64,000 bases of DNA, taken from positions 248,001 to 312,000 of the forward strand of contig NZ_CP059211.1 in assembly GCF_014252115.1 (NCBI RefSeq). Direction: 5' to 3'. Source of the stretch: Blattabacterium cuenoti (GTDB lineage Bacteria > Bacteroidota > Bacteroidia > Flavobacteriales > Blattabacteriaceae). Position numbers and translations under genes: made by a program. The notes under the pieces were generated by a model, which worked only from the letters and a program-made list of their open reading frames with translations, had not been told where the DNA came from and did not search any database. How positions within the stretch are numbered: the first letter of the stretch is position 1; every line of letters starts with the position of its first letter. Shown here piece by piece: positions 14,173-33,312 of this stretch.

Positions 14173-14541
14173 ATGAAAAAAAATATACAAGATATCCTAA
14201 AAGGAAAATTTTTAGTCAGAGAAAATGCTTATCGTAGTTGGAATTTTATTGTTTTTATTACTTTACTATCTTTAATTAGTATTACCAGTTCACATATGAT
14301 GGATCGAAAAATTCGAAAAGTGAATAAAATTAGCGAAGAAATAAAGGAATTAAAATCTGTATATGCTGATATACATAGTAAATGTATGAAAATGCAATTA
14401 TCCTCTTTTATAAGAAAAAAATTAGTTAATGGATTAAAACATTTAGATACTCCTCCATATGAATTGATCATAATAGAAAATGAAAAAGATAACGTAAATG
14501 TTAATAATAATGTTATAGAAGAAGAAAAGATAATACAATAA
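14173..14541 (+). CDS. FtsL-like divisome protein
   Basis: Bitopic membrane protein of 122 residues: a short basic cytoplasmic part, one hydrophobic segment (about residues 26-43, FIVFITLLSLISITSSHMM), then a charged helical periplasmic part with spaced hydrophobics that could form a coiled coil. Position between rsmH and ftsI, size and topology match FtsL, whose sequence is poorly conserved. It would bridge FtsI/FtsW to FtsQ. Identification rests mainly on place and architecture. Confidence 0.75.
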   Translation: MKKNIQDILKGKFLVRENAYRSWNFIVFITLLSLISITSSHMMDRKIRKVNKISEEIKELKSVYADIHSKCMKMQLSSFIRKKLVNGLKHLDTPPYELIIIENEKDNVNVNNNVIEEEKIIQ

Positions 14542-14550
14542 AAATAAAAA

Positions 14551-16518
14551 ATGAAACAAAAAAGATATGTTTTGTTATATAAATCTTATTTAATTGGTTT
14601 TTTATTCATATTTATTGCAATATTAATTATTTTCAATTTATTCTACATACAAAATTATTCAAAAGGATACAAAAAATCTGTTATAGAAAAAACAATTAGA
14701 ACTAATTTAATTAAAGCAAAACGTGGTAATATTTATGCTTCAGACAGTAGTATTTTAGCTATGTCTGTTATTAGATATGATATTCATATTGATTTTATGT
14801 CTATATCTGATAAATTATTTAAAGAAAATATTTATTCTTTATGTAATTCTTTGGAATCTTTATTAAAAAAACCAAAAATTTTTTTCTATAAAAAATTTAT
14901 ATATGAAAAAAAAAGGGGAAACAGATATTTTTTACTAGCAAAAAATTTAGATTATCCACATTTTAAAATACTACGAAATTTACCCATTTTCAACAAGGGG
15001 CAAATACGAGGTGGTTTTATTGTAGAAAAAAAAATATGCAGAATTCATACATTGGAAAATATTGGAAAAAGAACATTAGGATATGATGATCATAGGGGAA
15101 AAGCGGGATTAGAAGGGGCTTTTAGTAAATATTTAAAAGGGAAAGATGGAAGAAGATTAGAACAACGTATTAGTTTTAAAATATGGAAACCATTGAAATC
15201 AGAAAATGAAGTTAATCCAGAAGATGGAAAAGATGTTTATTCCACTATAGATATATATTTACAAGACATAGCCTATCATGCATTGCTTCAAGAATTATCC
15301 ATTTCTCAAGCAGATCATGGATGTGTAATTTTGATGGATGTCAAAAGTGGAGAAATTCCTGCGATGATCAATCTTGAAAAAACAAAAAAAAATACTTATG
15401 AAGATTTAAGAAATTTTGCAATATGGGAAGGAAGTGAACCAGGATCCACTTTTAAAACGATGGCTATTCTTGCCGCTTTAGAAGACAAAAAAATAGATGT
15501 AAATATGGTTGTTAATACTAAAGGTGGAGTCATGAAATTGAAAGGAAAAAAAATACGCGATAGTCATTATAATGGATGCGTTAAAATGAATCCAAAGAAA
15601 ATTTTGGAATTATCGTCAAATGTAGGTATCGCAAGAATTATTCACAATAATTATAAAAACAATCCTGAAAAATTTATAAAGCATTTACGTAAGTGGAGAT
15701 TAGATAAAAAAATAGGAATAGATATTCCAGGGGAAAGCATACCTTTCATCCCAGAACCAGGAAAAAAAAATTGGAGTAGTATCACTTTACCATGGATGAC
15801 TTTTGGATACAATCTGAAATTAACTCCTTTGCAAATACTTATATTTTATAATGCTATTGCAAATCAGGGAAAAATGATTAAACCTCTATTTATTCGAGAA
15901 ATAAAATATCATGGAAAAAGTATAAAAAAATATAAAAAACCTATCGTCATGATTCCTTCTATAGCTGAAAAATCTTCTTTAATTAAAATTCAAAATATGT
16001 TAGAAGGGGTAGTTAAAAATGGAACTGCTAAAAAATATTATAATCCAGAATATCCTTACGCTGGAAAAACAGGAACAACACAATTAAATTATTGGATGAA
16101 AGGAAGACCTTTAACTTATAATAGTTCTTTTGTAGGATACTTTCCTGCTAAAAATCCAAAATATTCTTGTATTGTAGTTATTTCAAAACCAGAAAAAGGA
16201 TATTATGGTATTGAGGTAGCAGTCCCTGTATTTGACCAAATCGTAAAATATATTTACCCCAGAATAGAACGAAAAATACTAAATAGAAAACTTAAAGAAA
16301 ATTTATTAAATAAAATTATCGAATCAAAAAATTTTTTGATTGATAAATGGATCATGCCTAATGTAATATCTATTCCCGGAAAAGAGATCATTCCCTTATT
16401 AGAAAATAAGGGATTTCATATTCAGTATGAAGGAATAGGAAAAGTGATAACCCAGTCTGTTAAACCAGGAAAAAAATTGAAAAAAAATCAGATTATTTTT
16501 CTAAAATTAGAAGAATGA
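14551..16518 (+). CDS. ftsI: septal peptidoglycan transpeptidase (penicillin-binding protein) with PASTA domain
   Basis: Class B penicillin-binding protein of 655 residues that cross-links murein at the septum. It has one membrane anchor (about 12-32), a pedestal domain with KAKRGNIYASD near 55 and GKAGLEGAF near 183, and the transpeptidase domain with Ser299-TF-Lys302, Ser355-S-Asn357 and Lys506-T-G508. A PASTA domain closes the C-terminus (about 595-655), as in Bacteroidota and Gram-positive relatives but not in E. coli FtsI. ATG start; its stop overlaps murE by 4 bp (ATGA). Confidence 0.95.
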   Translation: MKQKRYVLLYKSYLIGFLFIFIAILIIFNLFYIQNYSKGYKKSVIEKTIRTNLIKAKRGNIYASDSSILAMSVIRYDIHIDFMSISDKLFKENIYSLCNSLESLLKKPKIFFYKKFIYEKKRGNRYFLLAKNLDYPHFKILRNLPIFNKGQIRGGFIVEKKICRIHTLENIGKRTLGYDDHRGKAGLEGAFSKYLKGKDGRRLEQRISFKIWKPLKSENEVNPEDGKDVYSTIDIYLQDIAYHALLQELSISQADHGCVILMDVKSGEIPAMINLEKTKKNTYEDLRNFAIWEGSEPGSTFKTMAILAALEDKKIDVNMVVNTKGGVMKLKGKKIRDSHYNGCVKMNPKKILELSSNVGIARIIHNNYKNNPEKFIKHLRKWRLDKKIGIDIPGESIPFIPEPGKKNWSSITLPWMTFGYNLKLTPLQILIFYNAIANQGKMIKPLFIREIKYHGKSIKKYKKPIVMIPSIAEKSSLIKIQNMLEGVVKNGTAKKYYNPEYPYAGKTGTTQLNYWMKGRPLTYNSSFVGYFPAKNPKYSCIVVISKPEKGYYGIEVAVPVFDQIVKYIYPRIERKILNRKLKENLLNKIIESKNFLIDKWIMPNVISIPGKEIIPLLENKGFHIQYEGIGKVITQSVKPGKKLKKNQIIFLKLEE

Positions 16519-17990
16519 AAAAACTAAAAGATATACTGAAAAAAGTACATATTTTAAAAATAATAGGAAAAAATACTTATAAATTTGTAAAAGGAATTTC
16601 TATAGACTCCAAAATAGTACAATCAAATATGATTTTCGTAGCTATAAAAGGAGAAAAAACAGATGGACATCAGTTTATTATAAATGCTATACAAAAAGGA
16701 GCTAATACTATAATTTTTGATAAAAGTTCCTTTTCCATTATTCATAATAACAAACATATCACTTATATACTTGTTCCAGATTCTATGGAAGCTTTAGGAA
16801 TTATATCATCTAATTTTTATGATCATCCAACAAAAAAAATAAAATTAGTAGGAATAACTGGAACTAATGGAAAAACTTCTACAGCGACAATACTTCATCA
16901 GTTATTTTCTAAAATGGGAGAAAAAAATACTCTAATTTCTACTATAGGTGTAAAAATAGCATCTAGAGAATATCCTACAACACATACAACTCCGAACATT
17001 ATTGATATTAATAAATATTTAAATATTTCAGTACAACAAGGATGTAAATACGCTTTTATGGAAGTAAGTTCACATGGAATACACCAAAAAAGAATTGCAG
17101 GTTTATTATTTCAAGGTGCAGTTTTTACTAATATTACACATGATCACTTAGATTATCATAGATCTTTTAATCATTATTTATCTACTAAAAGGACTTTTTT
17201 TGAAAATTTATCTAAAGAAACTTTTGCATTAGTCAATTCCGATGATGAAAATTCACATAAAATCATAAAAAAAACTTTAGCTAAAATCTATTTTTATGGT
17301 ATAAAAAAAAAATCTGATTTTAAGATCAAAATTTTAGAAGAAAATATGAATGGAAATCAGTTATTAATTGATAATTATCAAATTTTTACCCATTTGATGG
17401 GTAGATTTAATATTTATAATCTTCTGGCTAGTTATGCAACAGCTATTTTATTGGGAAAAAATAAAATTGATATTCTGAAATATATAAAATATGTTAAACC
17501 CATAAAAGGACGTTTTGAGCAATTTATATCCAATTCAGGTATTCATATTATTGTAGATTATGCTCACAATCCAGATGGATTAAAATCCATTTTATATACT
17601 ATTAAAAACATAAAAAATGATGATGAAAAATTAATTTGTGTCATAGGTTGTGGAGGAAATAGGGACATAAAAAAACGTTCTTTAATGGGAAAAATTGTTT
17701 ATGAAACATGTGATGTATCTATTTTCACATCTGACAATCCTAGAAATGAGGATATAAATAAAATATTTGATGACATGAAAAATTTTAGATCATCTCTAAA
17801 AGGAAAATCTATTTTGACCTTTTTCAAACGAACAGAAGCTATTCAAACTGCAATTCAAATTGCAAAAGAAAAAGATATTATTCTAATAGCAGGAAAAGGG
17901 CATGAAACTTTTCAAGAAATAAAAGGAATTCGTTATTCTTTTAATGATATGAAAATTGCTCAATATTTATTAAAAACTTACGATAAGTAA
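16515..17990 (+). CDS. murE: UDP-MurNAc-tripeptide synthetase (meso-diaminopimelate-adding)
   Basis: ATP-dependent ligase adding the third residue to the murein stem peptide. GTNGKTST (116-123) is the P-loop, EVSSHG and HDHLDYH follow, and the C-terminal domain has SDNPRNED near residue 407. DNPR is the signature for meso-diaminopimelate, agreeing with dapF in the same window. 491 residues, normal length. ATGA overlap with ftsI suggests translational coupling; mraY starts 1 bp after it. Confidence 0.96.
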   Translation: MKKLKDILKKVHILKIIGKNTYKFVKGISIDSKIVQSNMIFVAIKGEKTDGHQFIINAIQKGANTIIFDKSSFSIIHNNKHITYILVPDSMEALGIISSNFYDHPTKKIKLVGITGTNGKTSTATILHQLFSKMGEKNTLISTIGVKIASREYPTTHTTPNIIDINKYLNISVQQGCKYAFMEVSSHGIHQKRIAGLLFQGAVFTNITHDHLDYHRSFNHYLSTKRTFFENLSKETFALVNSDDENSHKIIKKTLAKIYFYGIKKKSDFKIKILEENMNGNQLLIDNYQIFTHLMGRFNIYNLLASYATAILLGKNKIDILKYIKYVKPIKGRFEQFISNSGIHIIVDYAHNPDGLKSILYTIKNIKNDDEKLICVIGCGGNRDIKKRSLMGKIVYETCDVSIFTSDNPRNEDINKIFDDMKNFRSSLKGKSILTFFKRTEAIQTAIQIAKEKDIILIAGKGHETFQEIKGIRYSFNDMKIAQYLLKTYDK

Positions 17991-17991
17991 G

Positions 17992-19173
17992 ATGATTATT
18001 TTTTTTAAATCCTTAATTTATATTTACTTATATATCAACATAAATCCTGTTTTTTATAAAGCAATTATAGCTTTTTTTTTATCATTTTGTATAGCTTTAA
18101 TTTTGTATCAAAAGATTATATGTTGGAATCGAAAAAATAGAATCATAGGAGAGAAAATACGAGATCTTGGGCTTTTGGGTCAAAAAGAAAAAGAAGGAAC
18201 CCCAAGTATGGGTGGTATTATTATTATATTTTCAACGTTAATTCCTACAATATGTTTTTCTGCGTTAAATAATGTGTACGTATTAATGTTGATAATGACT
18301 ACATTGTATATGGGAAGTATTGGATTTATAGATGATTATATTAAAATAAAATATAATAAAAAAGGACTTGGTGTAATGAGTAAAATATTCAGTCAAATCA
18401 TATTGGGAATTTTTATTGGAATTACTATGTATTTTAATACGAGTATTTCTAGTGTTCAAAAAACAGAATCAAAAAATCTATATTCTTTTTCCTTAAAAGA
18501 ATATGGATTCAAGACTACTATTCCTTTTTTGAATGAATTTAACTATGCTTATATTCTGAGTTGGTATAATAAAAAATGGAGAAAATATACATGGATTATT
18601 TTTATTCCTATTGTTGTTATAATTATTATATTTTTATCCAATGGAGCTAATTTAACTGATGGAATAGATGGATTAACAGCTGGAATTTCTTCTATTATTT
18701 TTATTACTTTATCTCTATTATCTATAATTTCCAGTAGTAAGATATATTCCTCTTATTTCCATTTTATATATATTCCTAATCTATTAGAAATTATTATATT
18801 TTCTTTTTCGTTTTTAGGAACTTTGATAAGTTTTCTTTGGTATAATACTTATCCAGCTCAAATTTTTATGGGAGATACTGGAAGTTTAACTATAGGAGGC
18901 GTTATAGCTACACTAGCTATTATAAATAGAAAAGAAATCATATTACCTGTTTTATGTGGAATTTTTTTTATAGAGAATATTTCTGTAATCATGCAAGTAT
19001 TGTATTTTAGATATTCTAAAAAAAAATATGGCGTAGGAAAAAGAATTTTTCTCATGGCTCCTTTACATCATCATTTTCAAAAATTAGGATATCATGAAAA
19101 TAAAATTTCCAATCGTTTTATCATCATACAAATGATGTTGTCTATGTTAGTATTTATTTTATTAATTATATAA
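17992..19173 (+). CDS. mraY: phospho-MurNAc-pentapeptide transferase
   Basis: Polytopic inner membrane enzyme that forms lipid I from UDP-MurNAc-pentapeptide and undecaprenyl phosphate. The 393-residue sequence has the magnesium/substrate motifs IGFIDDYIKI near 107, SNGANLTDGIDGLTAG near 215, AQIFMGDTGSLTIGG near 290, and the histidine motif APLHHHFQK near 352, with about ten hydrophobic segments. murF, which makes its substrate, is not in this cluster. ATG start directly after murE. Confidence 0.96.
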   Translation: MIIFFKSLIYIYLYININPVFYKAIIAFFLSFCIALILYQKIICWNRKNRIIGEKIRDLGLLGQKEKEGTPSMGGIIIIFSTLIPTICFSALNNVYVLMLIMTTLYMGSIGFIDDYIKIKYNKKGLGVMSKIFSQIILGIFIGITMYFNTSISSVQKTESKNLYSFSLKEYGFKTTIPFLNEFNYAYILSWYNKKWRKYTWIIFIPIVVIIIIFLSNGANLTDGIDGLTAGISSIIFITLSLLSIISSSKIYSSYFHFIYIPNLLEIIIFSFSFLGTLISFLWYNTYPAQIFMGDTGSLTIGGVIATLAIINRKEIILPVLCGIFFIENISVIMQVLYFRYSKKKYGVGKRIFLMAPLHHHFQKLGYHENKISNRFIIIQMMLSMLVFILLII

Positions 19174-19178
19174 AAAAA

Positions 19179-20539
19179 ATGAAAAAAAAATTCATAGTTG
19201 TATTGGGTGGAGGAGAAAGTGGAGTTGGAGCCGCTTTATTAGCTAAGAAAAATGGATTAAAAATATTTTTATCTGATTCTGGAGTTATCCTAAACAAATA
19301 CAAAAAAATTTTAATAAAAAATAAAATTCCTTTTGAAGAAAAAGGGCATACAGAAGATATAATTATTCGACATGCTGTTAAAGTGATAAAAAGTCCGGGT
19401 ATTTATAGAAATCACCCTTTAATAAAAAAAATCAATTTATTCGGAATTCCCATACAATCCGAATTAGAATTCGGTAAAAGTTATATTGGGAATTCTTATA
19501 TAATCGGAATTACAGGAAGTAATGGAAAAACAACAACTTGTTCTATTGTCTATCAAATACTTAAAAAAAAAGGAATGAATGTAGGGATAGCAGGAAATAT
19601 TGGGCATAGTTTTTCAAAAGAAATTATAAAAAAAAAGATATTTATATATTAGAAATGAGTAGTTTTCAATTAGATGATTGTTTGAACTTTCGTTCAAATA
19701 TTGCAGTATTATTAAATATAACAAGAGATCATTTAAACAGATATAATAATAATATTGATAATTACATGGATTCGAAATTGAAAATAGCAGATTTTCAAAA
19801 AAAGGAAGATATTTTCATTTACAATTATGATGATCCTATTATAAGAAAAGGGTTAAATAAACATATTATTAGGTCTCACTGTATTCCTTTTTCTATCAAA
19901 GAAGAATTACACATAGGAGCTTATGTAAAAAATAACAAAATATTTATTCGAAAAAAAAATCAGGAAATATATTTTATCAATGTAAAAGATATTCCTTTAA
20001 TAGGAGATCATAATCTATATAATATTATGGCTTCATTGATTATATCCGAAATATTAAATGTAAAAAAAGAATCAATAATTTCCGTACTATTAAAATTTAA
20101 ATCTATAGAACATCGTATGGAAAAAATATTAAATATAAATGGAGTACAATTCATTAATGATTCTAAAGCAACTAATGTAAATGCAGTTTTTTATGCATTA
20201 AAAAGTATGAATGCACCTATTATATGGATAGCAGGAGGAGAAGATAAAGGGAATAATTATGTAGAATTAATTCCTTTAGTTAAAAAAAAAGTAAAAGCTA
20301 TAATTTGTTTAGGAAAAAACAATAAAAAGATTATTGATTTTTTTAAAAATACCATTAATATTATTCTGGAAACAGAAAATATTAAAAAAGCTGTTTATAT
20401 GGCTTATATATTATCTTCTCATGGAGATAACGTTCTATTATCTCCTGCTTGTTCCAGCTTTGATCTTTTTAAAGATTATAAGGAGAGAGGAAATAAATTT
20501 AAACAAGAAGTAAGAAAATTGATTCATGAAAATTTATGA
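19179..20539 (+). CDS. murD: UDP-MurNAc-L-alanine:D-glutamate ligase, split by a one-base frameshift in an A9 tract
   Basis: Adds D-glutamate to UDP-MurNAc-alanine. The first part (19179-19652) holds the Rossmann domain, with GGGESGVGA at the start, and the ATP loop GITGSNGKTTT. It stops in TAG just after an A9 tract. The second part (ATG at 19655) continues without loss in the other frame: the shifted frame reads DIYILEMSSFQLDDC across the join, as in intact MurD, then the central and C-terminal domains (NDSKATN, GGEDKGN, SPACSSFD). One extra A gives a protein of about 453 residues, normal for the family. All motifs are intact and the gene is essential in a walled cell, so I call it functional through slippage, frameshifting or a sequencing error. 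The end overlaps ftsW by 14 bp. Confidence 0.88.
19628..19637 (+). other. A9-G slip site in murD (contains A-AAA-AAG)
   Basis: Nine adenines followed by G. In the incoming frame the last seven bases read A-AAA-AAG, the heptamer used for -1 frameshifting in E. coli dnaX. A -1 slip here enters exactly the frame of the rest of MurD (next codon GAT). RNA polymerase adding one A in the run would give the same result. The nearest clear downstream hairpin (TTTGAAC-TTTC-GTTCAAA, 19681-19698) starts 43 nt later, further than a typical frameshift stimulator. Confidence 0.7.
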
Positions 20540-21722
20540 AAAAATAGATTTATTTTTGAATAAATATATAAAAGGAGATAGATATTTATGGGCTTTTATT
20601 TCTTTGTTAGCTATATTTTCCTTTTTACCAGTTTATTCTGCTAGTACCAATTTAGTTTCTATATATAGAGGGACAAATACAGTATTCAATTATTTGTTAA
20701 AACATACTCTTTTTTTGTTAGTTGGATTTTTCATTCTTTTTTTCACTCAATTTATATACTATAAATATTTTTACCGTATGTCTATTTTTTCCATGCCTAT
20801 AGTATTTATTTTATTAATTCTTACGATGACTCAAAAAAAAGAATTATATGGAGTGAATGCTTCTCGTTGGTTACATATTCCTATTATAAATATATCTTTT
20901 CAAACTTCTAATATTGCAGGATTGGCTCTCGTCATCTATTGTGCTAGATATTTATCTAAAAAAAATAAAGAGCGAATCAATTTTAGAAACTCTTTTTTCT
21001 CCTTGTTATTTCCTATATTTCTTATTATTGGACTTATTTTTCCTGCCAATGGATCTACTGCTGCAATTGTTTTTATATCCGTTTTAATGTTACTTTTTAT
21101 AGGTGGATATCCGTTAATAAGTCTTATAGGTGTTTTTCTAATGGGATTTTTATTTTCAGGAATATATATTTATTCTGTAATAAAATGGGGAAACCCTATG
21201 AATAGGGTTTATACATGGAAAAGTAGGATAGAACAATTTTTGGATCATGAATCTGAAGAAAGTTATCAAATGAAACAATCTAAGATGGCTATTGTTTTAG
21301 GAAATAAATTTGGTCGTGGCCCTGGAAAGAGTGTTTTAAAAGCTTTTCTTCCCCAATCCTCTTCAGATTTTATCTATGCTATCATAATAGAAGAATATGG
21401 ATTTATTGGAGGTGTTATACTCTTATTTATTTACATATTAATTCTAATGAGAATTTTGATAATAGCAACAAAGGTACAAAATTATTTTTGTTCTTTATTG
21501 GTCCTTGCAGTAGGTTTACCTATAATCAATCAAGCACTAATTAATATGGGAATAGCTGTTGGTTTATTTCCAGTTACGGGACAAACTTTGCCACTGATTA
21601 GTGCGGGAGGAACTTCCATGTGGGTTACTTTTTTTAGTTTTGGTATTATATTAAGTGTCAGTCGAATGATATATAAAAATCAGACTGGCTCCACTAAAAT
21701 AATAACAGATTATGAACCATAA
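20526..21722 (+). CDS. ftsW: septal peptidoglycan polymerase FtsW (SEDS family)
   Basis: SEDS glycosyltransferase polymerising lipid II at the division site with FtsI. The 398-residue protein has about ten hydrophobic segments and SEDS marks: GVNASRWLHIP near 115, LPQSSSDFIYAIIIEEYGFIG near 277, INMGIAVGLFPVTGQTLPLISAGG near 338. Asp in SSSDFIYAI is the likely catalytic residue region. ATG start inside the end of murD (14-bp overlap) and 11-bp overlap with murG indicate coupled translation. Confidence 0.94.
   Translation: MKIYEKIDLFLNKYIKGDRYLWAFISLLAIFSFLPVYSASTNLVSIYRGTNTVFNYLLKHTLFLLVGFFILFFTQFIYYKYFYRMSIFSMPIVFILLILTMTQKKELYGVNASRWLHIPIINISFQTSNIAGLALVIYCARYLSKKNKERINFRNSFFSLLFPIFLIIGLIFPANGSTAAIVFISVLMLLFIGGYPLISLIGVFLMGFLFSGIYIYSVIKWGNPMNRVYTWKSRIEQFLDHESEESYQMKQSKMAIVLGNKFGRGPGKSVLKAFLPQSSSDFIYAIIIEEYGFIGGVILLFIYILILMRILIIATKVQNYFCSLLVLAVGLPIINQALINMGIAVGLFPVTGQTLPLISAGGTSMWVTFFSFGIILSVSRMIYKNQTGSTKIITDYEP
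21191..21210. repeat. 9-bp inverted repeat with 2-bp centre inside ftsW
   Basis: AAACCCTAT and ATAGGGTTT around GA form a compact hairpin in coding sequence for the conserved NPMNRVYTWKSRI region. It is GC-richer than its surroundings. It may be coincidental; noted as one of several coding inverted repeats in this window. Confidence 0.6.
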
Positions 21723-22818
21723 TATTTCACCAAAAATTATTTTTGGAAGCGGAGGAACTGGAGGTCATATATATACAGGAATTGCTATTGCTAATGAACT
21801 TATAAAGAAAATTCCAAAAACCAATATTTTATTTATTGGATCTAAAAATCGTATGGAAATGCAAGAAATTCCCAGATTTGGATATTCTATTGAAGGAATT
21901 TGTATTTCAGGTGGAAAAGATAAATTTTTTTCTATATCAGGTTTTATCTTATCTATACAGTTGATAAATAGTTTATTTGTAGCAAATAAAATTATTAAAA
22001 AATTTTCCCCAGATATAGTTATTGGAACAGGTGGTTTTGTTAGTTTTCCTACTTTATATGCTGCAAAAAGAAATAAAATACCTATTCTGATTCAAGAACA
22101 GAATTCTTTTCCTGGATTGACTAATAGAATATTTTCTCGTTATGCAAGTAAGATTTGTGTTGCTTATGAGCAAGCAAAAAAATATTTTCAGGAAGAAAAA
22201 ACGATCATAACTGGAAATCCAGTCAGATCTGAAATACTAAAACTTCCTAGTAAAGAAAAAGCTTGTTTTCATTTAGGATTAAAAATAAAAAAACCTATTA
22301 TTTTATCTATAGGGGGAAGTCAAGGTTCCAATAGTATTAATAATGCTTGGATAAAAGGATTAAAAAAAATAATAGAATTAGACATACAACTTATTTGGCA
22401 AGTAGGAAAATTCGATATTCATAAAATTAAAAAAAATGAAATATCTCATCATTCAAATATTATTTTCATGGAATTTATTGAAAATATGCCTATATGTTAT
22501 GCTGCTGCGGATATAATTGTATCTAGAGCTGGAGCTTTAACTATATCAGAAATATGTTTGATAGGGAAACCATATATATTGATACCTTTTCCTTGGTCTT
22601 CAAATGACCATCAAAATCGAAATGCTAGAATATTAGAAGAAAAAGAAGCAGCTTTGATTATAAAAAACGAAGAAATAGAGAATAAATTAGTGAGTTCTGT
22701 CATCAAATTAGCAAATGATTATAGCATGAAAAAAAAAATGAGAAAAAATATATTAAAATTAGGAAAACCTAAAGCAACGAATGATATTGTCAACGAGATT
22801 TTACAAATTATTTTATGA
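21712..22818 (+). CDS. murG: UDP-GlcNAc:lipid I N-acetylglucosaminyltransferase
   Basis: GT-B glycosyltransferase on the inner face of the membrane, converting lipid I to lipid II. GSGGTGGHIYTGIAIA near residue 11 is the first glycine-rich loop, GTGGFVSFP near 103 the second, then IGGSQGS near 200 and SRAGALTISEI near 265 with the UDP-GlcNAc residues. 368 residues, normal. ATG start overlapping ftsW, stop overlapping murC by 4 bp. Confidence 0.96.
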   Translation: MNHNISPKIIFGSGGTGGHIYTGIAIANELIKKIPKTNILFIGSKNRMEMQEIPRFGYSIEGICISGGKDKFFSISGFILSIQLINSLFVANKIIKKFSPDIVIGTGGFVSFPTLYAAKRNKIPILIQEQNSFPGLTNRIFSRYASKICVAYEQAKKYFQEEKTIITGNPVRSEILKLPSKEKACFHLGLKIKKPIILSIGGSQGSNSINNAWIKGLKKIIELDIQLIWQVGKFDIHKIKKNEISHHSNIIFMEFIENMPICYAAADIIVSRAGALTISEICLIGKPYILIPFPWSSNDHQNRNARILEEKEAALIIKNEEIENKLVSSVIKLANDYSMKKKMRKNILKLGKPKATNDIVNEILQIIL

Positions 22819-24194
22819 ATTTAAACAAAATTGATTCTTTTTATTTTATAGGGATAGGAGGTATAGGAATGAGCTCTATTGCTAGATATTTTCATCTTAT
22901 GGGAAAAACTGTTTCTGGTCATGATAAAAATGAAACTTTTTTGACAAAAAAATTAGAAAAAGAAGGAATATCCATAAATTATCATGATAATACAGAAATA
23001 TTACCCGAATGGGTATTATCTAAACAATGTTTAATTGTATATACTCCAGCTATTCCTACTAAAGATCATAAACAGTGGACATATTTAAAAAAATATGGAA
23101 AAAATATAAAAAAACGTTCTCAAGTGTTGTCTTTAATTATAGAAAATAATATTTGTATAGCCATAGGGGGTGCCCATGGAAAAACGACCACTTGTACTCT
23201 GTTAGGACATATTTTATATAGTGTTGGAATGAATGTAACTGCTTTTTTAGGAGGAATATCTGAAAATTATCAATCAAATTTAATATTGAATAATGTTTTA
23301 AATGAAAAAAAAATTTTTTTGGTAGAAGCAGATGAGTTTGACCATTCTTTTTTATATTTATCTCCTAATATAGCATGTATAACATCTTTTGATCAAGATC
23401 ATATAGACACTTATCCCAACGAAAAATTTTTGAAAAAGGCTTATGTAACTTTTTTGGATAAGATAAAAAAACCATATAAAAAAATATTTCTATGCAAAGA
23501 AGAATCTTTTCGATTTGATAATGCTATATATTATTCCGTAATAAAAAAAGAAAGTTATTACTCCAATCATCTTTGTATAAAAGAAAATAAATGGTATTTT
23601 GATTTTCATACTCCTAAAGAAACATGGAAATCTCTACTTTTACCTATTCCAGGTCAACATAATTTAAAAAATGTTACTGCAGCATTATCTATATCTGATT
23701 ATTTAAAAATCCCTAAAGAAAAAATAAGACAAGCTTTACTTTTATTTAAAGGAATCAAAAGAAGGTATAGTATTCATTATCAATCTTCAAAAAAAATATA
23801 TATAGATGATTATGCACATCATCCGACAGAAATTAATGCATTGATTAAAACTGTAAGAAAATGTTTTCCAAATAAAAAGATATTAGGTATTTTTCAACCT
23901 CATCTATTTAGTAGAACTAAATTTTTTGAAAAATCATTTGCAAAAAGTTTAGAACATCTTGATATTTTAATTTTATTAGATATTTATCCAGCTAGAGAAC
24001 TTCCTATAAATGGAATTAATTCTAATCGTTTATTAGAAAAAATAAGAATGAATAATAAAGAAATATCTACTTTATCTAAAGTTTTAGAAAAAATTGAAAA
24101 AAAATATTTTGATATTATTCTGACAATGGGGGCTGGAAATATAGATACATTAATCCTTCCTATCAAAAAATGGTTGTATAAACGATATGAATAA
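22815..24194 (+). CDS. murC: UDP-N-acetylmuramate:L-alanine ligase
   Basis: First amino acid ligase of murein stem synthesis. YFIGIGGIGMSSIAR at the N-terminus, the P-loop GGAHGKTTT near 119, EADEFDHSF near 171, and the C-terminal IDDYAHHPTEI near 325 and PHLFSRT near 356 are all in order. 459 residues, full length. ATGA-coupled to murG; ftsQ follows 4 bp later. Confidence 0.96.
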   Translation: MNLNKIDSFYFIGIGGIGMSSIARYFHLMGKTVSGHDKNETFLTKKLEKEGISINYHDNTEILPEWVLSKQCLIVYTPAIPTKDHKQWTYLKKYGKNIKKRSQVLSLIIENNICIAIGGAHGKTTTCTLLGHILYSVGMNVTAFLGGISENYQSNLILNNVLNEKKIFLVEADEFDHSFLYLSPNIACITSFDQDHIDTYPNEKFLKKAYVTFLDKIKKPYKKIFLCKEESFRFDNAIYYSVIKKESYYSNHLCIKENKWYFDFHTPKETWKSLLLPIPGQHNLKNVTAALSISDYLKIPKEKIRQALLLFKGIKRRYSIHYQSSKKIYIDDYAHHPTEINALIKTVRKCFPNKKILGIFQPHLFSRTKFFEKSFAKSLEHLDILILLDIYPARELPINGINSNRLLEKIRMNNKEISTLSKVLEKIEKKYFDIILTMGAGNIDTLILPIKKWLYKRYE

Positions 24195-24198
24195 ATAA

Positions 24199-24927
24199 AT
24201 GAAAAATAATAAAACATTTTTTATCATTATTTTATTACTATATATGATTTTTATGATATCTCTTTCTTTTTTTTCTCAAAAAACGCATAAAAATAGAATT
24301 TTGAAAAAATTTAATATTATCATAGATCCTTTATCTAAAAATCGTTTTGTAAATGAAGAGATTATTAAAAATATTCTTTTTTATAAAACAGAAAAGATTG
24401 AAAAAAAAATCGGTCAATTATGTATATTAGAAATGGAACAAAAATTAAATAATTATCCTTTTATAAAGAAATCGGAAGTATTTCTTAGTGTAGATGGTTC
24501 TCTTAATATTAAAATTTGTCAAAAAGTACCCATTTTAAGAATAAAAAATGGAAATAAGGAATATTATCTTACTGAAGAGGCCGAAAATTTAAAACTTTCT
24601 TCTTTTTATTCGTCAAAAGTCATTTTAGCAAAAGGTCCTTTTTCAAAAGAAGAAAAAAAATATTTAACAAGTTTGATCAATTTCATAAATTCCGATGAAT
24701 TATTAAAAAATCAAATTATTAGCATAAAAAAAAATAATAAAAATTCATTTGTTTTGATTCCAAAAATCGGAAATCATCATATAATATTAGGAGATATAAA
24801 GGATTTTAAAAATAAATTGAATAAATTAAAAGAATTTTATAAACAGTATCTAAATAAAATAGATATTAATCAATACAAGAGTATTGATTTACAATATAAA
24901 GACCAAATAGTCGCAAAAAAAAGATAA
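24199..24927 (+). CDS. ftsQ: divisome protein FtsQ (POTRA domain)
   Basis: Bitopic division protein of 242 residues: one N-terminal membrane segment (about 7-26), then a POTRA-like region (NIIIDPLSKNRFVNEEIIKNI, with NNYPFIKKSEVFLSVDGSLNIKICQKVPI around 85-115) and a C-terminal beta domain. Sequence identity to FtsQ is low as usual, but the KSEVFLSVDGSLNIKI-QKVPILRI pattern and the position between murC and ftsA are typical. ATG start. Confidence 0.88.
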   Translation: MKNNKTFFIIILLLYMIFMISLSFFSQKTHKNRILKKFNIIIDPLSKNRFVNEEIIKNILFYKTEKIEKKIGQLCILEMEQKLNNYPFIKKSEVFLSVDGSLNIKICQKVPILRIKNGNKEYYLTEEAENLKLSSFYSSKVILAKGPFSKEEKKYLTSLINFINSDELLKNQIISIKKNNKNSFVLIPKIGNHHIILGDIKDFKNKLNKLKEFYKQYLNKIDINQYKSIDLQYKDQIVAKKR

Positions 24928-24931
24928 GTCT

Positions 24932-26278
24932 ATGGAACATCAAGATATAGCTATAGGTCTGGATGTAGGAACAACGAAAATTGTAGCTATAGTGGGAAGA
25001 AAAAATGAATATAATAAAATTGAGATTTTAGGTATAGGTAGATCTAAAAGTGTAGGTGTGCATAGAGGAGTTGTAAATAATATAACTCAAACAATTGAAG
25101 CTATTCGTGAAGCTGTATCTGAAGCAGAACATAGTTCTGGTTTAAAAATAAAAGAAGTTATTGTTGGAATAGCAGGGCAACATATCAGAAGTCTACAACA
25201 CAATGATTATATTACTAGATTAGATTTTGAAAATGTTATCAGTCAAAAAGATATACAAAAATTAATAGATCAAGTTCATAAACTAGTTATGCAACCAGGA
25301 GAAGAAATTATTCATGTTCTTCCACAAGAATATAAAGTTGATAGTCAAGCAGAAATAGGAGAACCAATAGGAATGTATGGAAGTCGTTTAGAAGCAAATT
25401 TTCATGTAGTAGTAGGACAAATTTCTTCGATCCAAAATATTGGAAGATGTGTAAAAGCTGCAGGTCTGAATTTATCTGGAATGACTTTAGAACCTCTAGC
25501 TTCTGCTGAAGCTGTATTAAGTACCGAAGAAAGAGAAGCAGGTGTAGCTTTAGTAGATATAGGAGGAGGTACTACGGATATTGCTATCTTTAAAGATAAT
25601 ATTATACGTCATACTGCCGTTATACCTTTTGGAGGTAATGTTATTACTGAAAATATAAAAACAGATTGTTTGATTATCGAACGGCAAGCAGAATTACTGA
25701 AGATCAAATTTGGATCTGCATGGCCAGGAGAAAATAAGGAAACAGAAATTGTTTGTATTCCTGGATTAAGAGGTAGAGATCCTAAAGAAATTTCTTTAAA
25801 ACATCTTTCCCAAATTATTCATATACGAGTATGTGAAATTTTGGATCAAGTAAATATAGAAATAAAAAATTATGGAAATGAAGAACAAAAGAAAAGACTT
25901 ATTGCAGGGTTAGTCATGACAGGTGGAGGTTCTCAATTAAAACATATTCGTCCGTTGACAGAATATATTACTGGAATGGATGTTCGTATAGGTTATTCTA
26001 ATGAACATATTGCAGGAGGAGAAAATGGACTTATAAATAATCCAGAATACGCTACATCTATAGGATTGGTAATTAAAGGGCTTCATGACAAAAAAAAATA
26101 TCTTTGTAATATGGGGCGTAGATATGATGAAAATTCTGAATTGATTTCTACAAAATTTTATAATAAAAATATCAATTATGGAGAAGATCATAAAAAGAAA
26201 AAAAATAAAAAAAAATCAAAATCTTTTTTTGAAATTTGGGCAGATAAGTTCCGTCAAATATTGAATGATACAGAATAA
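24932..26278 (+). CDS. ftsA: cell division actin-like ATPase FtsA
   Basis: Tethers FtsZ filaments to the membrane. Actin-fold motifs: phosphate 1 IAIGLDVGTTKIVAIVG (7-22), phosphate 2 VALVDIGGGTTDIAIF near 205, adenosine motif LVMTGGGSQLKHI near 327. The SHS2 (1C) domain lies between about 84 and 165. The C-terminus, SFFEIWADKFRQILND, is an amphipathic helix suited to membrane targeting, preceded by a lysine-rich linker. 448 residues. ATG start 4 bp after ftsQ. Confidence 0.96.
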   Translation: MEHQDIAIGLDVGTTKIVAIVGRKNEYNKIEILGIGRSKSVGVHRGVVNNITQTIEAIREAVSEAEHSSGLKIKEVIVGIAGQHIRSLQHNDYITRLDFENVISQKDIQKLIDQVHKLVMQPGEEIIHVLPQEYKVDSQAEIGEPIGMYGSRLEANFHVVVGQISSIQNIGRCVKAAGLNLSGMTLEPLASAEAVLSTEEREAGVALVDIGGGTTDIAIFKDNIIRHTAVIPFGGNVITENIKTDCLIIERQAELLKIKFGSAWPGENKETEIVCIPGLRGRDPKEISLKHLSQIIHIRVCEILDQVNIEIKNYGNEEQKKRLIAGLVMTGGGSQLKHIRPLTEYITGMDVRIGYSNEHIAGGENGLINNPEYATSIGLVIKGLHDKKKYLCNMGRRYDENSELISTKFYNKNINYGEDHKKKKNKKKSKSFFEIWADKFRQILNDTE

Positions 26279-26289
26279 TAAACCATGAA

Positions 26290-27627
26290 ATGAAAAAAGA
26301 AGATTTTACACTAAGAAAAGAAAAAGAAAATGTTCAATTGGAATTTCCAAAAAATCGTTCAGCCTCTATCAAAGTAATTGGAGTAGGAGGAGGGGGAAGT
26401 AATGCTTTAAGTCATATGTTTGAGCAAGGAATTACTGGAGTAGACTTTATAGCATGTAATACGGATGCACAAGCGTTAAATAATAATCCGGTTCCTATAA
26501 AAATTCAATTAGGAGTTTCTATTACGGAAGGACTAGGTGCTGGAGCAGATCCAGAAGTTGGAGAAAAAGCTGCATTAGAAAGTTTGGAAGAAATAAAAAG
26601 TATTTTAGATTCTAATACTAAAATGACCTTTATTACAGCAGGAATGGGTGGAGGAACAGGAACAGGCGCTGCCCCAGTTATTGCAGGAATTTCTAAAGAA
26701 AAAGGAATTTTAACTGTAGGTATCGTTACAATTCCATTTCATTTTGAAGGAAAGATGAGATTACAACAAGCCCAAAAAGGAATAGAATCGTTAAGAAAAA
26801 ATGTAGACTCTCTCATTGTTATTAATAATGATAAATTGAGAGAATTATATGGAAATCTAGGATTTAAAGCCGGGTTCGCAAAAGCAGATGAAGTTTTAAC
26901 AACTGCAGCTAAGGGTATTGCAGAAGTTATCACTCATCATTATAAACAAAATATAGATTTAAGAGATACAAGAACTGTCCTAAAAGAAAGTGGAACTGCT
27001 GTTATGGGGTCTGCTATTGCTGTTGGAGAAAATAGAGCGAAAGAAGCTGTTGTACAAGCATTAGATTCTCCGTTATTGAATGATAATAAAATTACGGGAG
27101 CCAAAAATGTTCTTCTTCTTATTGTTTCAGGAAAAATAGAAATTACTATAGATGAAATAGGAATTATTAGCGATTATATACAAACTGAAGCAGGTAATAA
27201 TGCTAATATTATTATGGGTCTAGGAGAAGATGAAATTTTGGAAGAAAGTATTTCAGTTACTATAGTAGCTACTGGTTTTCCTACTGAAATACAACGAGTT
27301 ATTAATAACGAAGAAAAAAAAATTTTTCATAGGTTAGAAGAACCTTATGAACAAAAATTAAAAAAAATGGAAAAAATACATTCTAAAAGAATAGATCCTA
27401 TTCTTTCAAAAGATTTTTCTAAATCAAATCATTTTGATAAAGATGACTTGTCATCGAATAAAAAACAAAATATTTTTAATGAATCTATCAACTCAAATTT
27501 TATTATAAAAGAAAAACGTAAAAAATATATATTGGAAAATAGTTTTGATCTTCCTATTTCATACAGTGAAAATAAAAAAATTTTGATAAATCGTATTCAT
27601 AAAAAAGAAAATAATACAAATCAATAA
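26290..27627 (+). CDS. ftsZ: cell division GTPase FtsZ
   Basis: Tubulin-like GTPase forming the division ring. It has GVGGGGSNAL (31-40), the GTP signature GMGGGTGTGAAPV (118-130), and the T7 loop NIDLRDTRTVL with the asparagine and both aspartates that trigger hydrolysis in the neighbouring subunit. The globular core ends near 335. The remaining 110 residues are a charged linker, ending in a tail around FDLPISYSENKK that may be the peptide binding FtsA, although it does not match the classical form. 445 residues. ATG start. Confidence 0.97.
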   Translation: MKKEDFTLRKEKENVQLEFPKNRSASIKVIGVGGGGSNALSHMFEQGITGVDFIACNTDAQALNNNPVPIKIQLGVSITEGLGAGADPEVGEKAALESLEEIKSILDSNTKMTFITAGMGGGTGTGAAPVIAGISKEKGILTVGIVTIPFHFEGKMRLQQAQKGIESLRKNVDSLIVINNDKLRELYGNLGFKAGFAKADEVLTTAAKGIAEVITHHYKQNIDLRDTRTVLKESGTAVMGSAIAVGENRAKEAVVQALDSPLLNDNKITGAKNVLLLIVSGKIEITIDEIGIISDYIQTEAGNNANIIMGLGEDEILEESISVTIVATGFPTEIQRVINNEEKKIFHRLEEPYEQKLKKMEKIHSKRIDPILSKDFSKSNHFDKDDLSSNKKQNIFNESINSNFIIKEKRKKYILENSFDLPISYSENKKILINRIHKKENNTNQ

Positions 27628-27632
27628 TTCAA

Positions 27633-29042
27633 TTGATATTTCCTAATATCCCAAAAGGGACCAGAGATTTTTCATCCATTGAGATGAGTAAACGTAATTA
27701 TTTAATTCAAACAATTCGAGAACAATTTGAACTTTTTGGCTTTAGTCCTATAGAAACTCCTTCTATTGAAAATATATCCACTCTTACTGGAAAATATGGA
27801 AAAGAAGGTGATTCCTTAATATTCAAATTGTTACATTCAGGTAATCTTTTGAAAAAGAAAATTTTATGTTTATTGAAACAGATTAATAATGATAAAAAAA
27901 CGGTTAATATTGAAAAATATTTTACTGAAAAAATGTCTAATAAAGCTCTTAGATATGATTTAACGGTCCCCTTTGTTCGTTATGTAGTAATGCATAAAAA
28001 TGAAATCGTTTTTCCTTTTAAAAGATACCAAATACAACCTGTATGGCGTGCAGATAAACCTCAAAAAGGAAGATGGAGAGAATTTTATCAATGTGATGCA
28101 GATATGATATCATACTCTTGCTCTTTATGGGAAGAAATAGAATTAATTCAACTTTGTGACGAAATTTTCAATAAATTAAATTTTCCTGTTGTTATTTATA
28201 TAAATCATAGAGATATATTAGTAGGATTATTTGAAATTGCTGGAATAGAAAATAACTTATGGAAACATTTTACTACGTCTTTAGATAAATGGAATAAGAT
28301 TGGACGAGATTCAGTAAAAAAAGAAATGCTTGATAAAGGAATTTCATCTGAATCTTTTGATAAAGTAGCTTTTTTTTTCGATATGGAAGAAAATTTCTAT
28401 AAAAAAGAAAAACATTTGACTCTAGCCTTACAAAATTCTGAAAAAGGTAAAAAAGGAATGCGAGATTTAAGCTTTATTTATAATAAAATAAATAATATTT
28501 CTTTACAAAAGACAAAATTAGAATGGAATCTTTCTTTAGCTAGAGGAATGAATTATTATACAGGAACAATATTAGAAATTGTTCCAATTAATAACAAAAA
28601 CTCTGTTTCTATTGGAGGAGGAGGTAGATATGATCAATTAGCTAATTTATTTGGAATGAATAATGTTTATGGAGTAGGAATTTCTTTAGGTTTAGATCGA
28701 ATTTATTTAGAAATGGATAAAGAAAATTTGTTTCAAACTATTGAAAGTAAACCTTCAAAAGTTTTGTTTATTCATTTCGGAAATGAAGAGATTTTGCATG
28801 CATACAAAATAATCAAATTTTTTAGAAAAAAAGGAATTTCTACTCAATTGTATCCTAATGCAGATAAAATAGGAAAACAATTTAGATATGCTAATGATAA
28901 TAATATTCCATTTGCTATTAGCATAGGGAAAAATGAAATCAATGAAAATAAAATCAGAATGAAAGATCTTAATAAGGGGGTAGAAAAAGAATACGACAAC
29001 ATGAATGATCTTGTGAATCAATTAAAAAAAAATTATAAATAA
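27633..29042 (+). CDS. hisS: histidine-tRNA ligase
   Basis: Class II aminoacyl-tRNA synthetase, 469 residues. The N-terminal IPKGTRDF motif, ALRYDLTVPFVRYV (motif 2 start), FKRYQIQPVWRADKPQKGR, SLARGMNYYTGTILE with the histidine-A loop, and GGGGRYDQLANLF with GISLGLDRIY are present. The only start keeping the essential KGTRDF motif at the usual distance is TTG, 5 bp after the ftsZ stop, so it is probably read from the dcw transcript. The stop overlaps the convergent pnuC by 10 bp. A tRNA-His gene lies in the same window. Confidence 0.95.
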   Translation: MIFPNIPKGTRDFSSIEMSKRNYLIQTIREQFELFGFSPIETPSIENISTLTGKYGKEGDSLIFKLLHSGNLLKKKILCLLKQINNDKKTVNIEKYFTEKMSNKALRYDLTVPFVRYVVMHKNEIVFPFKRYQIQPVWRADKPQKGRWREFYQCDADMISYSCSLWEEIELIQLCDEIFNKLNFPVVIYINHRDILVGLFEIAGIENNLWKHFTTSLDKWNKIGRDSVKKEMLDKGISSESFDKVAFFFDMEENFYKKEKHLTLALQNSEKGKKGMRDLSFIYNKINNISLQKTKLEWNLSLARGMNYYTGTILEIVPINNKNSVSIGGGGRYDQLANLFGMNNVYGVGISLGLDRIYLEMDKENLFQTIESKPSKVLFIHFGNEEILHAYKIIKFFRKKGISTQLYPNADKIGKQFRYANDNNIPFAISIGKNEINENKIRMKDLNKGVEKEYDNMNDLVNQLKKNYK

Positions 29043-32286: not shown

Positions 32287-33312
32287 TTATTGTATAACAT
32301 TTACTTCTCTTGATAAAGAAATACCGAATTTTTTTTTTATATTTTTCGTTATTTTTTCTGAAAAAGAAAATATTTCCATTCCAGTAGCTCTTCCATAGTT
32401 TACTAAAATGATAGGTTTTTTTTCATATATTCCTACATTTCCAATTCTCTTTCCTTTCCATCCTATATTTTCAATTAATGAATTAACAGATAGTTTAACT
32501 TGATAATTAGAAATACTATAACCTATAATAGACGGATACTGATGTTTTAGTTTTTTAAAGTCCAATACTCCTATTATAGGATTAATAAAAAAACTACCAG
32601 CATTTCCAATTTTTTTTGGATTTGGAAGTTTCCTCTGTCTAATATTAAAAATCGCCTGACTTAAATTGTTTATAGTTGGAATTTTAATATTCATATTTTC
32701 TAATTCTTTTTGAATTTCCACATAATATGATGTGTTTAATTGTTTATTATTTTTTTTTAAAAGAAAAAAAACAGATAAAATCATAAATTGATTTTTAAAA
32801 CGAAGATCCTTAAAAAAGGAATAACGATATTTTAATTGACATTCTTTATGTGTAAAATCTATAATTTTTCTATTATCAATTTTATATGCTTGTACTTTAA
32901 CTAAAGTATCTTTGATTTCTGATCCATATGCTCCAATATTTTGAATAGGAGCTGCTCCAACTGTTCCAGGAATGAATGATAAATTTTCTAATCCACTAAA
33001 TCCTTTTTTGATTGTCCAATTTACAAATTCACTCCAATTTTCTCCAGCATTAACTTTAATAATTACTTGTTTATCAGTTTCTTTAATTATTTTTTTTCCT
33101 TTAATTCCCATTTTGATGACTAATCCCGGATAGTAATTTTTTAAAAAAAGAATATTACTTCCATTTCCTAAAAAAAGTTTTGAACTGTATGAATATACAT
33201 CAAAAACTTCATGAAGTTCTTCTATATTTTTCACTTCTACAAAATATCGAGCATAAACATTTATTCCAAATGTATTAAGTTTTTTTAAAGAAAAATTTTT
33301 TTTAATAAACAT
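32287..33312 (-). CDS. murB: UDP-N-acetylenolpyruvoylglucosamine reductase
   Basis: FAD enzyme completing UDP-MurNAc synthesis. FLGNGSNILFL near residue 46 and LSFIPGTVGAAPIQNIGAYG near 110 bind FAD, AGSFFINP near 241 holds the catalytic serine, and LSREVNVI at the C-terminus carries the active-site glutamate, as in E. coli-type (class I) MurB. 341 residues. It lies apart from the dcw operon. ATG start, divergent from the YtxH gene with about 112 bp between. Confidence 0.95.
   Translation of the reverse strand: MFIKKNFSLKKLNTFGINVYARYFVEVKNIEELHEVFDVYSYSSKLFLGNGSNILFLKNYYPGLVIKMGIKGKKIIKETDKQVIIKVNAGENWSEFVNWTIKKGFSGLENLSFIPGTVGAAPIQNIGAYGSEIKDTLVKVQAYKIDNRKIIDFTHKECQLKYRYSFFKDLRFKNQFMILSVFFLLKKNNKQLNTSYYVEIQKELENMNIKIPTINNLSQAIFNIRQRKLPNPKKIGNAGSFFINPIIGVLDFKKLKHQYPSIIGYSISNYQVKLSVNSLIENIGWKGKRIGNVGIYEKKPIILVNYGRATGMEIFSFSEKITKNIKKKFGISLSREVNVIQ

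Follow-up and report, generated by a model that had tools for sequence, protein, structure and literature searches.

A poly(A) frameshift in murD shared by many Blattabacterium genomes and probably mended by RNA-polymerase slippage

In Blattabacterium, a cockroach endosymbiont that lives inside host cells, the essential cell-wall gene murD is divided between two reading frames at a run of nine A's. This frameshift is real, old and functional, ordinary in its kind and remarkable in its age and extent, and it is likely that the gene is rescued by RNA polymerase slipping on the inherited A9 tract; we infer both that the repair takes place at the level of RNA and that the polymerase is its agent. 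The genome analysed (G000) is a single contig of 631,801 bp with a G+C content of 25.4% and 725 A/T runs of at least nine, and the window, a stretch of 64,000 nucleotides to which the positions of murD and its neighbours refer, corresponds to bases 248001-312000 of that contig.

Layout of the split gene

murD occupies positions 19179-20539 on the forward strand and loses its frame at an A9 tract (19628-19636), which is followed by a G at 19637 and which, read directly and compared with 48 relatives, has one A fewer than in G044, an intact relative with A10. The 5' part, holding the N-terminal domain and the P-loop, lies in the zero frame (19179-19652, 157 codons) and crosses the junction as ATA AAA AAA AAG ATA TTT ATA TAT TAG, the stop being the TAG at 19650-19652. 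MurD sequence resumes in the -1 frame from the GAT at 19637, and this frame, which stays open from the tract as far as its stop at 20539, supplies the remaining middle domain and the C-terminal ligase domain in 300 codons and a stop (19637-20539). Against the NCBIfam murD model TIGR01087, which has 441 positions, the two pieces match 2-147 and 154-440 without overlap, and the 3' piece alone, at 281.3 bits, lies above the model cut-off of 211.95 bits. With one A added to the tract, 153 and 300 codons would be joined into a MurD of 453 residues. Direct reading also places an in-phase heptamer, A_AAA_AAG, at 19631-19637 (zero-frame codons AAA AAG). Two other A9 tracts stand in frame within the same gene, one after the start codon (19182-19190) and a second at 19563-19571, and both are unshifted, which makes them internal controls, while an ATG at 19655-19657, two bases past the zero-frame stop, is a possible but unlikely restart codon; all of these features are on the forward strand.

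The gene is part of a forward-strand division and cell-wall cluster (14173-29042) consisting of ftsL-like, ftsI-like, murE, mraY, murD, ftsW, murG, murC, ftsQ, ftsA, ftsZ and hisS genes, names assigned from the translations except for murE and murD, which have model matches. From ftsL to hisS, all are single open frames in the analysed genome except murD, and murB (32287-33312, reverse strand) is intact. An earlier sequence-only reading had described murD as split by one base at an A9-G tract that is at the same time a -1 slip heptamer, with the second frame continuing MurD free of gaps and about 453 residues restored by a single extra A; the sequence and its open reading frames, read directly, bear out this description, and the two model matches fit together without a gap. 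The same reading had named an intact second murD as one finding that would overturn it, and none exists: murD is single-copy in the genome, the two weaker matches being the neighbouring murE and murC.

Distribution, history and selection

A tblastn search recovered murD from each of the 49 Blattabacterium genomes: 26 copies are intact and 23 are split. Because all 23 splits fall at the same tract and in the same -1 phase, they lie far beyond chance. Among the split genomes the A run is 9 long in 14, 10 in one, 11 in four, 13 in three and 14 in one, and at the corresponding place in intact genomes it ranges from 5 to 13; a tract of at least nine A's is thus present in 23/23 split versus 20/26 intact copies, a weak contrast that takes no account of shared ancestry (Fisher p 0.024). 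In every one of the 23 split copies the 5' part reaches the tract without a stop and the 3' part continues for 291-300 codons to a stop of its own.

On a tree built from six other proteins (LG+G4, quick search, midpoint-rooted), 20 split genomes and four intact ones form a 24-genome clade (SH-aLRT 96), in which is nested a 15-genome clade (SH-aLRT 100) with 13 split members. The sequence-only reading had looked to tract length in related strains, and the comparison finds the same A9 in 14 of the 15 genomes of this smaller clade, the exception being G044 with A10; G046 has kept the A9 and regained its frame through a separate 2-bp deletion slightly downstream. The 5' parts of the 13 split genomes contain 20 other A9 tracts, G016 having none, and not one of the 20 is shifted. 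The split or intact state is clustered on the tree, requiring 8 changes against a mean of 16.5 when labels were shuffled, and none of 500 shuffles gave a value as low. For the 15-genome clade the simplest history would be a single deletion, followed by a reversion to A10 in one genome and a second-site restoration in another. Outside the 24-genome clade, the three split genomes G029, G038 and G014 belong to a separate clade and may represent independent splits.

The smaller clade includes three putative symbionts of Blaberidae, G044, G046 and G016, whose hosts we take to be Blaberus giganteus, Nauphoeta cinerea and Panesthia angustipennis (BPAA), respectively; by the same assumption G042 comes from Blattella germanica, G045 from Blatta orientalis, G041 from Cryptocercus punctulatus and G043 from Mastotermes darwiniensis. 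With the A9 shared by every genome of the clade but G044, the deletion is probably older than the spread of the Blaberidae, a placement that rests on the three putatively named members. The passages available from PMC5478607 put the onset of divergence between Blaberidae and the remaining Ectobiidae at an estimated 134.7 million years ago (110.6-162.0).

Selection on the two parts of the gene was estimated with the GY codon model on a fixed tree for three sets of genomes: the 13 split members of the 15-genome clade, the 20 split members of the 24-genome clade and 14 intact genomes of another clade. For the 3' part, omega is 0.110, 0.109 and 0.114 in these sets, respectively; for the 5' part it is 0.100, 0.096 and 0.113, and for murC, in the same order, 0.108, 0.100 and 0.095. 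The out-of-frame part of murD is hence under the same purifying selection as in intact lineages, which implies that, judging from sequence evolution, full-length MurD must be produced where the gene is split. The rest of the pathway has been kept as well: murA and murB are intact in the analysed genome, and murF is present in 49/49 genomes, scoring over its family cut-off in 45 and lying in two pieces in four.

Other split genes of the genus

Coding-strand runs of at least nine A's are frequent, with 874 in 12 genes over the 49 gene clusters, and the splits found in these clusters number 23 in murD, three each in murE and murG, and one each in ftsW, ftsI and ftsL. Eight of the nine splits outside murD occur at a single run of 9-11 A's; the ninth, in ftsI of G046, is ambiguous. 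G046 has both ftsL and ftsI split, and ftsL, ftsI and ftsQ were each unmatched in three of the 49 genomes.

When 556 open reading frames of G042 were mapped on the analysed genome, 13 frame breaks were recorded, among them seven genes broken at A runs of at least nine: murD, nadE, ruvX, def, nadD, topA and a mevalonate-kinase-like gene. The six others were dropped as short runs, a gene end, a trpF-trpB junction and an eroded era. The gene for the GTPase Era (~585584 in the G000 contig) does look eroded, with 49% identity to G042 and 13 stops in the match, and the trpF-trpB fusion of G042 corresponds to two frames at ~229769 in G000 and to two open reading frames in G016. The other four comparisons of this three-genome survey added 18 frame breaks, five of which repeat the nadE, def, murD and nadD cases, two of which belong to a single A11 case of the -1 phase in G016, and some of which are short-run breaks of both phases. 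Nine doubtful sites (eight with short runs and one A9 break in G042) were inspected: three are in spurious-looking open reading frames of 81, 99 and 124 aa, and the remaining six are at the 5' end, ahead of what the translations indicate to be the likely true start. The eight inspected short-run breaks do not count against a floor of nine A's, since they lie in doubtful reading frames or ahead of the likely start. The remaining breaks in the survey, at the C-terminus of a porin, in an 85-aa open reading frame and at an A4 site near a gene end, may still count against it.

Several of these genes are split repeatedly in the genus: nadE in 5 of 48 genomes, nadD in 37 of 48, topA in 14 of 46 and the mevalonate-kinase-like gene in 17 of 49. 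For genomes represented without sequence letters, the split was deduced from the positions of the two matching pieces and the tract itself was unread; clearly readable splits of these other genes have A runs of at least nine. In nadD (~330307 in the G000 contig), 29 splits are in the -1 phase and eight in the +1 phase, the same place reading A11G in G000 and A10G in G016 (~331801); G003 and G039, each with one match and one stop, were scored as unsplit. In G029 neither nadE (E up to 1e-10) nor nadD (E up to 1e-6) gave a match, and this genome may have lost the end of the NAD pathway. topA (~362718 in G000) was counted over 46 genomes, as G038 and G039 gave no match and G011 only a fragment, and in the analysed genome and G015 its phase is opposite to that of the other 12 splits. 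The break is not always at one position, nadE in G028 and topA in G016 being interrupted elsewhere than in other genomes, and the split topA of G016 contains additional stops and may be decaying. All 17 splits of the mevalonate-kinase-like gene (~562760 in G000) are in the -1 phase. In the available part of PMC6039017, a published Periplaneta symbiont genome is given mvaK, metG, gltX, atpG and dnaN as pseudogenes.

Altogether, 111 splits in 13 genes were counted, made up of 23 in murD, nine in other genes of the cluster, four in murF, five in nadE, 17 in the mevalonate-kinase-like gene, 37 in nadD, 14 in topA, and def and ruvX of the analysed genome. Of these, 101 are in the -1 phase, which can arise from one missing base or from two extra ones, and 10 in the +1 phase (eight in nadD, two in topA); as the genomes are related, the counts are not of independent events. 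Outside this set, a gene of ~155 aa in G016 (~144735; 509566-510033 in G042) has a -1 break at an A11.

Probable route to full-length MurD

The chain of events that best accounts for these observations would begin with a one-base deletion in the poly(A) tract of murD, fixed in the ancestor of the Blattabacterium of blaberid cockroaches or possibly of a wider clade, with the A9 state inherited ever since. RNA polymerase would slip on the A tract and add one A in a share of the transcripts; the corrected mRNA would encode a MurD of about 453 residues and the remainder a truncated product of 157 residues. Passages of PMC6260861 place polymerase slippage in enterobacteria at runs of at least nine A or T, with insertion having at least double the efficiency of deletion at 7-11 A's, and those of PMC5009743 state that up to six bases are added by slippage at nine A or T and that frameshifted endosymbiont genes have 12-50% of their transcripts corrected. 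Counting against slippage here, A9 is at the low end of the range, and the E. coli polymerase, in the same part of PMC6260861, prefers poly(T), slippage on poly(A) being the less frequent. Nor is the A9 purer than base composition would give: at 79 of 153 conserved Ile columns in which ATA is the commonest codon, all 13 split genomes have ATA.

A ribosomal -1 slip on A_AAA_AAG, programmed or tolerated in the manner of dnaX, would also yield full-length MurD from A9 mRNA, and although we consider it doubtful it is the rival to be taken most seriously. The heptamer is in phase, each of the 23 murD splits has the -1 phase that such a slip would mend, and the sole tRNA-Lys of the genome has a UUU anticodon; E. 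coli likewise has one tRNA-Lys, which excerpts of PMC5009743 describe as pairing weakly with the second shift codon. The stimulators of such a slip, however, are not apparent: the sequence-only reading had seen no strong structure just downstream, and folding agrees, with unremarkable z values of -0.53 and -0.49, and -0.21 when upstream bases are included (analysed genome only), nor is a Shine-Dalgarno-like stretch visible by eye in the 20 bases upstream. Moreover, a ribosomal slip would not depend on a run of nine A's, but every clear split of the cluster has at least nine, and the 10 opposite-phase splits of nadD and topA are beyond its repair, since a ribosomal -1 slip mends only the -1 phase whereas both phases can be mended only by insertions and deletions in RNA. 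It is because of the +1-phase cases, the nine-A floor and the lack of a stimulator that polymerase slippage is favoured; the sequence-only reading had likewise thought it likelier than ribosomal frameshifting, and the opposite-phase splits and nine-A floor lend support to that preference, the rescue as such still being inferred.

The remaining alternatives range from improbable to barely conceivable. A mixed population of symbionts, or of chromosome copies, in which A10 molecules supply MurD has a slim chance of being correct: homopolymers mutate fast and a minority allele would be compatible with consensus sequences, but the consensus is A9 in 14 of the 15 clade genomes and none of the 20 other 5' A9 tracts is shifted. 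Slimmer still is the chance that MurD consists of two separate chains, with the ATG just past the stop as the start of the second. That codon is ATG in 12 and GTG in two of the 14 split A9 genomes, and hence a potential start in all of them, but it is neither ATG nor GTG in any of the nine other split genomes, equally conserved ATG columns are common (63/101), and the second chain would be without the strand that precedes SSFQL in MurD structures. The premature stop in the zero frame might be taken as the sign of a dead or dying gene, a reading to which we give next to no credence, as the marks of a pseudogene are missing from the split copies: omega is not raised on either side (0.10-0.11), none of the 23 has further stops, either before the tract or within the 291-300 codons of the 3' part, and the pathway is retained. 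An error of sequencing or assembly, which the sequence-only reading had held to be the main alternative, is practically excluded. Homopolymers are error-prone on some sequencing platforms, and platform or editing may matter for single genomes, three of the four intact genomes of the 24-genome clade being putatively older, separately published ones whose authors may have edited homopolymers. The older, separately published genome of the putative Panesthia symbiont nevertheless has murD split and belongs to the 14 genomes with A9, and both the unshifted control tracts and the second-site restoration in G046 argue against error; neither an error process nor a mutational hot spot is likely, because neither would pick out one tract.

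It is tempting to speculate that split essential genes are not only tolerated but actively kept, slippage on A tracts being a routine step of decoding, either because the fraction of transcripts that is corrected fixes a favourably low dose or because the synthesis of cell wall and cofactors is thereby coupled to the behaviour of the polymerase. We regard this as improbable; if it were true, selection rather than tolerance would have kept murD, nadD, mevalonate kinase, topA and others frameshifted over tens of millions of years.

In the openly licensed literature, poly(A) frameshifts in Blattabacterium are absent from the titles and abstract openings of the matches listed, which is not proof of absence, and no passage on them was found in the available portions of PMC9603385, PMC6039017, PMC3287516 and PMC6128925. 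As far as the searches reach, three things are new within that literature: that Blattabacterium has poly(A) splits at all, how large the shared sets are, and the evidence that an essential Mur ligase in this state is under selection; the poly(A) frameshift with repair in RNA is, as a kind, already known. Should the splits be mended in RNA, what is inferred about the metabolism and gene losses of cockroach symbionts will change, and gene inventories of these symbionts have possibly been miscounted. The 15-genome clade, with its A9, its one A10 and its one second-site restoration, offers a natural experiment on the length of time for which error-prone transcription can sustain an essential gene.

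Tamas in 2008 and Wernegreen in 2010 reportedly described poly(A)-frameshifted genes in Buchnera and Blochmannia that are rescued by transcriptional slippage. In both genera, according to the parts available of PMC3017870 and PMC5009743, poly(A) frameshifts are common to several species and mended in RNA, and between four and eight frameshifted genes per genome are given for six Blochmannia genomes in a passage of PMC4389277. The murD case has several features of this class, being a single homopolymer indel in an otherwise intact gene, at an A9 (all split tracts are 9-14 long), in the reduced, AT-rich genome of an insect endosymbiont, and common to several species without gene decay. It differs in that it occurs in the Bacteroidota, affects an essential Mur ligase and extends to 23 of 49 genomes with several further split genes beside it. 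Cell-wall genes of an endosymbiont broken in homopolymers also have a precedent in Buchnera, for which sections of PMC3164680 report 1 to 18 homopolymeric frameshifts in each of eight genomes, murF, murE and mraY included; there, the murF breaks are interpreted as four independent inactivations, with slippage correction allowed for some, whereas murD of Blattabacterium is in one clade-inherited state under purifying selection.

Two versions of dnaX, both as portrayed in passages of PMC5009743, resemble murD in different ways. With E. coli dnaX it has in common the A_AAA_AAG and the single tRNA-Lys, but no stem-loop or Shine-Dalgarno stimulator is apparent at murD, and the opposite-phase splits of the genus need another mechanism. 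With dnaX of Thermus thermophilus it would have in common polymerase slippage on nine A/T and two products; in that gene, however, the long product is one open reading frame and slippage makes the short one, whereas in murD slippage would make the long.
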